64,000 nucleotides of DNA from Fodinibius halophilus (GTDB lineage Bacteria > Bacteroidota > Rhodothermia > Balneolales > Balneolaceae). Location of the stretch: assembly GCF_011059105.1 (NCBI RefSeq), contig NZ_JAALLS010000017.1, forward strand, positions 1 through 64,000, given 5' to 3'. The notes under the pieces are model-generated. The model was not told where the DNA came from, ran no database searches, and saw only the letters and a list, made by a program, of their open reading frames with translations. Within the stretch, counting starts at the first letter, position 1. Each line of letters begins with the position of its first letter. The position numbers and the translations under genes were made by a program. Positions 59,985-64,000 of the stretch are shown here, piece by piece.

Positions 59985-60686
59985 GTGAAACCGAAGCACA
60001 GCATATTATTAGTTGAGGACGAAGAGGAATCGGCTGAGATGTTAGCCAATTTCCTTGAGATGAATGACTATGAAGTATTAGTAGCGCACGAAGGTAACAG
60101 AGCGCTAGAACTTATCGAAGAACATGCCGGTGAAATTCATTTGGCTATTCTTGATATTATGGTTCCCAATGTTGACGGTAAGGAAATTTGTCGACATATC
60201 CGAAAGCATCCGGTATTAAATGACATTCCGGTTATTTTTCTAACAGCCAAGGATGAGGAGCAGGATGAGATTGAGGGACTGGAGCTGGGAGCAGACGATT
60301 ATATTCCCAAGCCGGCCAGTTTAAATTTGGTCAAAGCGCATGTCGAATCGTTGCTTCGCCGCCAAAATCCCCAAAAAGCTAACTGGCTGCAATATGGTGA
60401 TACCTATCTGGACACCGATGCCAAAGAATTATATGTGGATGATGAGAAGATTGAGCTTACCTCTACGGAATACACCCTTATTGAGCTGTTCTATAAAAAT
60501 CCCAAGCGTGTGTACACCCGCCAGGAGATTTTAGAGCATATCACTGAAGAAGATCGTTTTGTGTTTGATCGCACGGTAGATGTGCACGTAAAGAATTTAA
60601 GGCTCAAGATGGGAGATGCAGGAAAAGTAATTAAAACCTACCGTGGTATTGGTTATGGATTAAACCGTGAGATTGTAAAGGTATAG
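59985..60686 (+). CDS. OmpR/PhoB-family response regulator
   Basis: The receiver domain has the acidic pocket EDEEE (11-15), the phospho-acceptor Asp57 in LAILDIMVPN, the Thr of FLTAK and Lys109 in DDYIPKP. The C-terminal winged helix (ELTSTEYTLIELF ... VDVHVKNLRLKMG ... TYRGIGYGL) is of the PhoB type. The start is GTG at 59985. The histidine kinase follows after 102 bases, making a cognate pair. Target genes are not indicated. Confidence 0.96.
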   Translation: MKPKHSILLVEDEEESAEMLANFLEMNDYEVLVAHEGNRALELIEEHAGEIHLAILDIMVPNVDGKEICRHIRKHPVLNDIPVIFLTAKDEEQDEIEGLELGADDYIPKPASLNLVKAHVESLLRRQNPQKANWLQYGDTYLDTDAKELYVDDEKIELTSTEYTLIELFYKNPKRVYTRQEILEHITEEDRFVFDRTVDVHVKNLRLKMGDAGKVIKTYRGIGYGLNREIVKV

Positions 60687-60694
60687 ATGGGGCT

Positions 60695-60713
60695 GCCGGA
60701 AATCAGTTCCGGC
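60695..60713 (+). terminator. Weak intrinsic terminator or intercistronic hairpin
   Basis: GCCGGAA and TTCCGGC pair around ATCAG, then TTATTCTTCTTC. It lies between the response regulator and the kinase and might reduce read-through into the kinase. Confidence 0.5.
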
Positions 60714-60788
60714 TTATTCTTCTTCATAGCTGCTGAAGAGTTTTGTAATGAAAAGTAACTATTTAAATATGATGAACCCGGTATTTCA

Positions 60789-62186
60789 ATGAGCATACGT
60801 TCGAAATTAGCATGGACTTTTATTTTGCTTCTGATTTTTGGAATCACTTCTATCAGCAGTTACTCTATTGTTTTTATCCGCGATTATTTACTTGAGGAGG
60901 GGCGCGAGGAGATGGAGCAGGATACGCGCTGGCTGTCGATCACGGTGGCAAATTTGGCCGAAAACGAAACTTTGGATAAGCGCCTTGCTTCTGCTGCCAA
61001 AACATCGGGTTACCAGCTGGCTGTATATGATTCTACGGGTACGCTACTGGATTCGTATAGTAATAATGACTCTGCTTTTAGTCCCGATCGCCAGCTGACG
61101 GCCGGCATCATGAAAAGCCTGGAAGCACGCGCAGCACTTCCGCTGTTACCTGCTGATGAAGAATCTGAAACCTTAACCAGCTATATCGCTATTCCGGCAT
61201 CGGGGAGCTCAGTACAATACTTGCTTGCCAGCCAGCTTAAAGATCAAATATATGCCCCTATTAAAACCATTCGATGGATAATATATTATGGGATGTTTAT
61301 CTCTATCGGCTTGGTGGTAATTGTAAGTCTTTGGATCTCGCGCTATTTGACGAAGCCGATAACGCAGATCAAAAATGCTGCCCAGGATATTGCCGACGGA
61401 AATGTAGATCGGCAGATCGATATTAAAAGGCGTGATGAATTTGGAACGCTGGCTGATTCATTAAATCAGATGGCTTCAAAGCTGCGGGCTGATACGCTGC
61501 AGATTAAGCAGTTTGCTGAAAAGCAGCGCCAGTTTTTTGCTGATATCACCCATGAGATTCGAAACCCCCTGCATACCATATCGGGGGCACTGGAAATGTT
61601 GCAGCTTCCCGATTTAGATCCTCAAAAGGAGAAGAAGTATATTCGATCTGCCAGGAGGCAAACAGATCGGATTTCTCATCTCTTTAAAAATTTGAAAAAC
61701 CTACAGCGCTATGATTCGGATGAGTATTTCATAGAGAAGCAGGAGTTTGACTTGGCACCTATTGCTGAACATATGGAGGAGATCTATGATGAGCGTGCCG
61801 AAGTGAAAGGTATTGATTTGGAACTTGATCAACATTCGTGCACGGTTATCGGTGATCCGGCTAAGATAGAACAGGTGATCGATAACCTGATATCAAATGC
61901 ACTGAAGTATACCAACGAGGGAACCGTACGACTACGGTACAAATCTGATAGCGAGAAGGTTAATATCGTTGTAGAAGATGATGGTATAGGCATCTCGGAA
62001 GAACATCTGAATAGGTTGTTTGATCGGTTTTACCGAACAGATAAGGCACGATCGCGTGACAAAGGAGGAACGGGGCTTGGCTTGGCCGTAGTAAAAAGTA
62101 TTATGGACGGGCATGGAGCCGATATTAAGGTTGAAAGTGAAGTTGGTGAGGGTACACGATTTTCATTTGAGCTTCAGAAGGCTTAG
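60789..62186 (+). CDS. Membrane sensor histidine kinase
   Basis: The N-terminal TM segment (LAWTFILLLIFGITSISSYS) is followed by a periplasmic sensor (~40-160), a second TM (IIYYGMFISIGLVVIVSLWI) and a HAMP domain (YLTKPITQIKNAAQDIADG). The H-box is FADITHEIRNPLHT with phospho-acceptor His255. The ATPase has a DNLISNALKYT N-box, EDDGIGI and GGTGLGLAVVKSIM. It is typical of the PhoR/VanS class and partners the regulator in front of it. The signal is unknown. Confidence 0.95.
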   Translation: MSIRSKLAWTFILLLIFGITSISSYSIVFIRDYLLEEGREEMEQDTRWLSITVANLAENETLDKRLASAAKTSGYQLAVYDSTGTLLDSYSNNDSAFSPDRQLTAGIMKSLEARAALPLLPADEESETLTSYIAIPASGSSVQYLLASQLKDQIYAPIKTIRWIIYYGMFISIGLVVIVSLWISRYLTKPITQIKNAAQDIADGNVDRQIDIKRRDEFGTLADSLNQMASKLRADTLQIKQFAEKQRQFFADITHEIRNPLHTISGALEMLQLPDLDPQKEKKYIRSARRQTDRISHLFKNLKNLQRYDSDEYFIEKQEFDLAPIAEHMEEIYDERAEVKGIDLELDQHSCTVIGDPAKIEQVIDNLISNALKYTNEGTVRLRYKSDSEKVNIVVEDDGIGISEEHLNRLFDRFYRTDKARSRDKGGTGLGLAVVKSIMDGHGADIKVESEVGEGTRFSFELQKA

Positions 62187-62221: not shown

Positions 62222-62335
62222 ATGAGTCCTTTTCTTCAAATTCCCTTCATAAAGATTGAGTTTCTTTACCCTGATGAACAGGTGACTAGTATATCGCTTG
62301 AAGAAATTGATAATTGGCATTGGGTGCCAGAGTAA
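62222..62335 (+). CDS. Possible 37-aa ORF between kinase and hemH
   Basis: A short ATG frame (MSPFLQIPFIKIEFLYPDEQ...) ends with TAA 12 bases before the hemH start. It has no recognised motif and could be a leader or a chance frame. Its codon use resembles the neighbours. Confidence 0.3.
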   Translation: MSPFLQIPFIKIEFLYPDEQVTSISLEEIDNWHWVPE

Positions 62336-62347
62336 AAAAGAGTTAAA

Positions 62348-63469
62348 ATGTCGACGGAAGAAAAACGTATTGGTGTAGTTTTAATGAATTTGGGCGGGCC
62401 AACGGCGGATTATGCCGTTCGTCCATTTTTGTATAATCTTTTTCGCGATGAGGATATCATAAAGCTGGGAGGCGGTAAATTCCAAGACTATTTTGCAAAG
62501 ATTATATCCAAATTTCGTGCGCCAAGTGTTCAGGAAGATTATGAAGAAATTAATGGTTGTCCCAAAGGGTGCATGGGGAGCAAGCACTGCCTGAATCGCA
62601 AGAACAGCATCAAATCCACTTGTTGTTCTCCCATCAACAGTCTTACCGAAAAGCAGCGACGTGGTTTGGAGAAGCATTTGGGTAAGGTGATTCCGGATCA
62701 TACCGTAAAGGTATATACCTGCATGCGCTATTGGCTGCCTTTTGCTGATACGACTATGGAAGACATGCAGGAAGACGGTATCACACACGCGGTAATGGTT
62801 CCGCTTTATCCTCAGTTTTCATGGACTACAACCGGCAGCAGTTACCGGGATTGGGAAACAAAGCGTGATGAGAAGTTTGGCCATGATACGCCCTGGAAAG
62901 AATTTCACGTGAAGAACTACCATCTGGATGAGAACTATCTGACTGCGATGAATGATCGCATCGATGAAGCTCTGGCTGAGATGGATGAAGAAACACGTAA
63001 CAAAACACACTTCATCTTTAGTGCCCATGGTACTCCACTACTAGAGGTGCGAAGCGGAGATCCTTATACCAATGAGATCAACCAGACGATGGAAGCAATC
63101 ATGGAGATGCGGGGATATGATTACGATTACTGGCTGGGATATCAGTCAAAGGTAGGCCCGCAGAAGTGGACCCAACCTAATACCGCTGAGCTGGTTGAGC
63201 GCCATATTGAGTATGGTATTAAGAACTTCTTGATGATCCCTATTGCTTTTGTTACTGACCATATTGAAACGCTGTATGAACTTGGTGTTGAACTGGTCGA
63301 AGATCTCGAAGAAGAGGGCTATGAGTTTGAAAACCTGAAAGTGATGCCGGGTATCAACGATCATCCCAAGTATATAGAGGCATTGGCCAGCCAGGTACTG
63401 GATAAGTTGGATCACGAGATTAGTGCCCAAAAACTGGAATCGGAATCTCAAAAAGTATCTGCCGAATAG
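62348..63469 (+). CDS. hemH: Ferrochelatase with cysteine-rich insert
   Basis: Ferrochelatase inserts Fe(II) into protoporphyrin. It has the N-terminal GVVLMNLGGPTADYAVRPFL, the core MRYWLPFADTT, YPQFSWTTTGSSYRDWE, and the metal-binding His227 in FSAHGTPL. An insert of about 22 residues (70-94) interrupts the usual IGGGSPI segment and brings Cys71, 75, 81, 92 and 93. The insert is not in the common family and may bind a metal or Fe-S cluster. ATG at 62348; hemA starts with no spacer after the stop. Length 373 aa. Confidence 0.93.
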   Translation: MSTEEKRIGVVLMNLGGPTADYAVRPFLYNLFRDEDIIKLGGGKFQDYFAKIISKFRAPSVQEDYEEINGCPKGCMGSKHCLNRKNSIKSTCCSPINSLTEKQRRGLEKHLGKVIPDHTVKVYTCMRYWLPFADTTMEDMQEDGITHAVMVPLYPQFSWTTTGSSYRDWETKRDEKFGHDTPWKEFHVKNYHLDENYLTAMNDRIDEALAEMDEETRNKTHFIFSAHGTPLLEVRSGDPYTNEINQTMEAIMEMRGYDYDYWLGYQSKVGPQKWTQPNTAELVERHIEYGIKNFLMIPIAFVTDHIETLYELGVELVEDLEEEGYEFENLKVMPGINDHPKYIEALASQVLDKLDHEISAQKLESESQKVSAE

Positions 63470-64000
63470 ATGTCAGTTGAAGCTCCCAAAATAACGGATT
63501 TTTGTGCAGTCGGTGTAAACCACTGGGAGGCGAGTATTGATGTACGCGAGCGTTTTAGTTTAAGCGATGCAAGAAAGAAGGATCTTATAGACGGAGCTCG
63601 TCGGGAAGGGATAGAAAGCTTTTTTGTGGTTTCTACCTGTAATAGAACCGAGATTTTTGCCCAAGATGTTACTGCCCAAGAGCTTATTCGCCTGTTGGTT
63701 ACCTATTCGGACGGTACGCTTGAAGAATTTCATAATTACGGTTTCGAAAAAGAAGGACAGCATGCCGTTGAACACCTGTTCCAGGTAACGGTAGGACTCG
63801 ACTCCCAAATTCTTGGTGATGTCCAGGTTGTTAATCAGGTGAAAGAAGGGTATGAGTTTGCCAGCGATCTTGATGCCGTGGGGGGAGAGCTCCATCGACT
63901 GATGCAGCACGTTTTTCGGGCTCATAAACGGTCCCGAAACGAAACCTCACTCGGAGAGGGAGCAGCAACTACGGCTTATGCAGCGGTAAAATTTGCGATC
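63470..64000 (+). CDS. hemA: Glutamyl-tRNA reductase, N-terminal part (runs off window)
   Basis: Translation from the ATG at 63470 gives MSVEAPKITDFCAVGVNHW, followed by VVSTCNRTEIF with the catalytic Cys and GLDSQILGDVQVVNQVKEGY. These are hallmark segments of HemA, which reduces glutamyl-tRNA to glutamate-1-semialdehyde in haem synthesis. Only 177 codons are inside the window. The start follows the hemH stop immediately, so the genes are coupled in a haem operon. Confidence 0.93.
   Translation, partial: MSVEAPKITDFCAVGVNHWEASIDVRERFSLSDARKKDLIDGARREGIESFFVVSTCNRTEIFAQDVTAQELIRLLVTYSDGTLEEFHNYGFEKEGQHAVEHLFQVTVGLDSQILGDVQVVNQVKEGYEFASDLDAVGGELHRLMQHVFRAHKRSRNETSLGEGAATTAYAAVKFAI

Follow-up and report, generated by a model that had tools for sequence, protein, structure and literature searches.

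Ferrochelatases with an iron-sulfur cluster carry the cluster cysteines either within an internal insertion or in a C-terminal extension, and the function of the cluster has been an open question since 1994, according to the sections of PMC8529089 used here. The same sections state that both neighbouring cysteines of the CC pair in insertion-type enzymes take part in [2Fe-2S] binding, that bacterial Cys-to-Ser variants lacking the cluster remain active, and that motifs fitting the consensus C-x(1,11)-C-x(1,11)-C were counted only in the insertion or at the C-terminus, with 18 sequences bearing a motif elsewhere set aside. Insertion-type enzymes include those of Myxococcus xanthus and most Bacteroidetes (PMC8529089), while the C-terminal type is found in human, Caulobacter, Mycobacterium, Rhodothermus marinus, and Salinibacter ruber. 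In the active site, as set out in an excerpt of PMC9133952, S130 and Y123 hydrogen-bond porphyrin propionate 6, R115 pairs with propionate 7, and G129-S130-P131 lie in a loop that joins two helices and may help to close the active-site mouth.

Here, we analysed a window of 64,000 nucleotides, that is, the whole stretch of DNA studied, from Fodinibius halophilus (contig NZ_JAALLS010000017.1, positions 1 to 64,000). Its hemH gene (62348..63469, + strand, ATG start) encodes a ferrochelatase of 373 residues and is the single HemH found in the genome. The protein matched PF00762 (E 4.9e-91) and TIGR00109 hemH (E 1.4e-82), both over the curated cut-off. Alignment to the human enzyme (chain 2qd3_A, whose index runs 64 below the human residue numbers) paired R57 with R115, Y65 with Y123, G70 with G128, C93 with G129, S94 with S130, W159 with C196, and H227 with H263. 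Together with the profiles, the catalytic histidine H227 (63026..63028, +) places the protein in the HemH ferrochelatase family; its equivalent is essential in ferrochelatase according to PMC8529089, as far as the excerpt goes.

All cysteines of this HemH are at positions 71, 75, 81, 92, 93, and 125. With G70 at human G128 and S94 at S130, residues 71-92 (62558..62623, +), which contain C71, C75, C81, and C92, form a 22-residue insertion without counterpart in the human protein, and C93 (62624..62626, +) replaces human G129. The resulting pattern, C-x3-C-x5-C-x10-C-C, is immediately N-terminal to S94 (62627..62629, +), which corresponds to the serine contacting propionate 6; R57 (62516..62518, +) and Y65 (62540..62542, +) correspond to the human residues that contact propionates 7 and 6, respectively (roles from the excerpt of PMC9133952). 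A first-pass annotation of this DNA had described five cysteines within residues 70-94 (62555-62630) and had placed them at the IGGGSPI turn of the family, near the active site; the translation confirmed the cysteines, and the alignment to human ferrochelatase bore out the insertion point. The clustering exceeds chance: when the protein was shuffled 100000 times, only 33 of the resulting sequences had five cysteines within 23 residues. A known domain within the insert was ruled out by searches with the insert alone: three insert peptides matched no Pfam family at E up to 10, and the PDB gave no meaningful match, the best (E 0.087) being an ice-binding repeat. An AlphaFold model built from 11 close sequences had a mean pLDDT of 55.6, with residues 61-100 at 38-48.

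The insert meets the published consensus through C71-x3-C75-x5-C81-x10-C92, and its position differs from both described ones. Unlike C-terminal-type enzymes, the Fodinibius HemH has no cysteine after residue 125, and W159 (62822..62824, +) occupies the place of C196, a ligand of the human [2Fe-2S] cluster. In HemH from Bacteroidota families and from the betaproteobacterium Caballeronia, the Cys-rich stretch follows the catalytic histidine, for example as C-x5-CC-x9-C, with nothing at the IGGGSPI turn; our alignments put this insertion about 150 residues from the mouth insert, and the Fodinibius protein lacks post-His Cys insertion residues. The earlier statement that the described cluster cysteines are placed elsewhere thus stands, and the idea that our insert is the known internal insertion of Bacteroidetes can be rejected, as the alignments place the latter after the catalytic histidine. 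Both are Cys-rich insertions, some 20 residues long, that contain a CC pair (PMC8529089, in part), but here the pair comes last, just before the counterpart of S130, and M. xanthus was compared by description. We infer that the internal insertion described in the excerpt of PMC8529089 is the post-His stretch of our alignments. As the other described motif is a C-terminal tail, the mouth insert appears to represent a third position of a Cys motif in ferrochelatase, besides the two described for clusters. Some of the 18 sequences set aside in that work could share this kind of insert, and in the open-licence PMC literature, judged mostly by listing, we found no Cys insert described at this ferrochelatase position.

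The distribution of the insert was examined across the window's order, taken to be Balneolales from its named loci (L051-L061), which belong to Fodinibius, Aliifodinibius, and Balneolaceae; 101 of 128 genomes of the order had a HemH match. The 101 extracted proteins comprise 79 with the insert, 20 of another HemH type, and two contig-end fragments without the region. None of the 79 insert-carrying proteins deviates in any of the five insert cysteines or in their spacing, whereas C125, outside the insert, is a cysteine in only 51. G74, G77, N83, and S90 are also invariant, and R84 is present in 77 of the 79. These proteins are at least 50% identical in pairwise comparison, with an average of 66%, and share 110 invariant columns out of 373. 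This conservation supports a Cys cluster beyond chance more strongly than the shuffles do, and it answers the objection raised in the first-pass annotation itself, namely that the cysteines might not be conserved among close relatives with the insert; this candidate is ruled out.

Among the genomes searched, the insert is restricted to this order. A DNA pattern that required five Cys, two Gly, and one Asn of the insert matched 27 of 394 genomes of the phylum (52 in Balneolales, 342 outside), all 27 of them in Balneolales and each at hemH, with no match in the 342 others; the same pattern read backwards matched none of the 394. HemH extracted from other Bacteroidota families have a plain turn at this position, and scans of viral_contigs found no relative. 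Beyond Bacteroidota, the comparison comprised four plasmid-borne HemH and PDB chains, and the five PDB alignments listed had no insert. Short HemH of about 320 residues from two families (f23 and f41) share 45-48% identity with the Fodinibius protein over the core, approximately, but have neither the insert nor a Cys cluster.

We compared the HemH proteins by two trees. A quick tree of 126 rows, which remained of 175 extracted proteins once short and near-identical ones had been dropped, gave a single insert clade. A more careful tree, built on the core with the insert removed, used 55 of the 126 rows, including 19 of 46 insert rows and seven of 28 labelled post-His, and left out 23 named long-branch or divergent rows; two proteins that a regular expression had labelled post-His were grouped with class and phylum rows, since visual inspection showed a C-terminal motif in L077 and no post-His insertion in L123. 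In this tree, the insert-bearing HemH formed one clade (100/100), whose sister group, with moderate support (87/84), was the clade of class relatives with C-terminal motifs; the post-His type was far away, so that insertion-type cores are distant from insert-bearing ones. The other families of the class have RCHQC-like C-terminal motifs, in line with a remark on Rhodothermus and Salinibacter in the excerpt of PMC8529089, and a crude regular expression found C-x2-C at the C-terminus of 18 of the 34 HemH extracted from them. The first branch of the class clade, L046, was counted in the class group and has no motif, which makes separate gains of the Cys motifs look likelier than a move of one motif in this unrooted tree.

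Taken together, these observations suggest that the insert is a putative lid over the active site of ferrochelatase that holds a metal, most likely in a [2Fe-2S] cluster at the mouth, a reading to which we give about an even chance. The first-pass annotation had proposed a possible new metal site or redox switch. That the insert binds a metal at all is quite probable, because five invariant cysteines with fixed spacing occur in a presumably cytosolic enzyme. The metal is slightly more probably a [2Fe-2S] cluster than anything else; this is our first choice, with a zinc knuckle second, because the characterised Cys motifs of the family bind [2Fe-2S] and both cysteines of the CC pair are ligands in the insertion type. 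Gating of the active-site mouth by the insert is possible but doubtful. In the proposed mechanism, four of the five cysteines would hold the cluster at the mouth, its loss or redox change would alter mouth closure on protoporphyrin, since the insert sits between the propionate residues R57 and Y65 and S94, and heme output would thereby be tied to iron-sulfur and oxygen status.

The contrast between the five cysteines and C125 in the 79 proteins favours a metal centre, as do the adjoining loop of human S130, a pathway that uses oxygen and protoporphyrin (see below), and the fact that none of the 99 non-fragment HemH of the order is without a Cys motif, the mouth insert being present in 79 and the post-His insertion in the other 20. 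The C-terminal C-x2-C in 18 of the 34 class proteins and the single insert clade next to the C-terminal-motif clade point the same way. Against it count the fifth invariant cysteine, one more than a [2Fe-2S] cluster needs, the limited support for the sister group, and the poor AlphaFold model around the insert. Since cluster-less bacterial variants are active (PMC8529089), strong gating is disfavoured in the known types.

The spacing of the insert also counts against a cluster. Its C-x3-C-x5-C-x-N-R-Q arrangement presumably resembles that of zinc-binding AWS domains and, with the invariant G74, G77, and N83, looks like a zinc knuckle, so four of the cysteines might coordinate Zn2+ and make the enlarged loop more rigid, with no redox role. 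This structural zinc site is the strongest rival but unlikely: the insert differs from AWS domains in having no Pfam match, the PDB likewise offers no meaningful one, and the motifs of relatives within the ferrochelatase family bind [2Fe-2S] (PMC8529089, in part).

A metal-free thiol switch, in which disulfides formed under oxidative stress close or open the mouth, would suit an aerobic, O2-using pathway and a C93 that adjoins the propionate-binding serine. We consider it improbable, as five cysteines with fixed spacing in every insert-carrying protein exceed the needs of a two-Cys switch, and the cytosol, where HemH is presumably located, is reducing. Very improbable, too, is an iron-entry or delivery loop whose cysteines hold Fe2+ transiently, or serve as a docking site for an iron donor, and pass the iron to the active site; the position at the mouth loop would allow this, but no donor was identified and ferrochelatases of other families work without the insert. 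A [4Fe-4S] cluster, or one shared between two monomers, could use the spare cysteine and a mouth loop facing a partner, but it has no precedent in the ferrochelatase family in the literature examined and is likewise a very improbable reading.

If the [2Fe-2S] lid exists, an iron-sulfur cluster may here control the entry of substrate or the release of product, which would be a first among ferrochelatases, and within one bacterial class the enzyme may have acquired its cluster at different sites, with selection keeping the cluster and not the place; we regard this broader view as rather unlikely at present. A third-position motif that touches the substrate loop provides a natural enzyme in which the coupling between cluster and porphyrin may be strong enough to measure, and the unrelated HemH type in Balneolales, with its motif elsewhere, is a ready comparison.

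The gene order around hemH is that of a heme cluster: hemH is followed by hemA, hemC, hemD, hemE, hemF, hemB, and hemL (names assigned by eye), running past the end of the window, which contains the first part of hemA (63470..64000, +). In all of ten insert loci viewed, which were selected from the 79, hemA follows hemH. The genome has a HemY-type protoporphyrinogen oxidase (TIGR00562, E 1e-102, over the cut-off), and neither ChdC (PF06778) nor HemJ was found in it; an oxidase of this kind with ChdC absent is what distinguishes a protoporphyrin from a coproporphyrin ferrochelatase. These results point to protoporphyrin IX as the most likely substrate of this HemH and to a pathway that most likely uses oxygen, and the hemF-like ORF in the heme cluster was counted as an O2-using step. 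At one locus (L172 7513-8997), if translation of the hemF-like ORF starts at the first possible start codon, HemF is preceded by what we take to be a DUF559-type nuclease-like stretch; an overlong ORF and a fusion are the alternatives. Immediately upstream of the heme cluster lie paired genes for a response regulator and a histidine kinase (59985-62186), and a relative of the kinase precedes hemH in seven of the ten loci viewed, so this pair may regulate heme synthesis. Between the kinase and hemH there is a 37-codon ORF (62223-62336); a loose search found nothing alike in the 250 bases upstream of hemH at the other 78 insert loci, two of which hold fewer than 20 bases there.

The 20 HemH of the other type in Balneolales all come from the window's own family (L062-L075, L144, L146, L153, L157-L159), in which they occur in some genera, and are of a foreign, Bacteroidota-like post-His type, with five cysteines in the insertion in 19 and four in L071. 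In six of these genomes tested, HemA is 36-39% identical to that of the window, and in five of the six it lies about 1.5 kb from hemH, which suggests that their heme genes may have been replaced by transfer. HemH is lacking in 27 of the 128 genomes of the order, including 13 of the 83 most complete ones, and a HemA match was absent in all eight HemH-less genomes tested, suggesting that these are heme auxotrophs. Given the divergent HemA in the former and its absence in the latter, some members of the order seem to have lost heme synthesis and others to have reacquired it from outside. In one family of the class (f12), three genomes have two HemH each (L083, L084, L141; L040, L041, L047), and both copies carry C-terminal Cys pairs.
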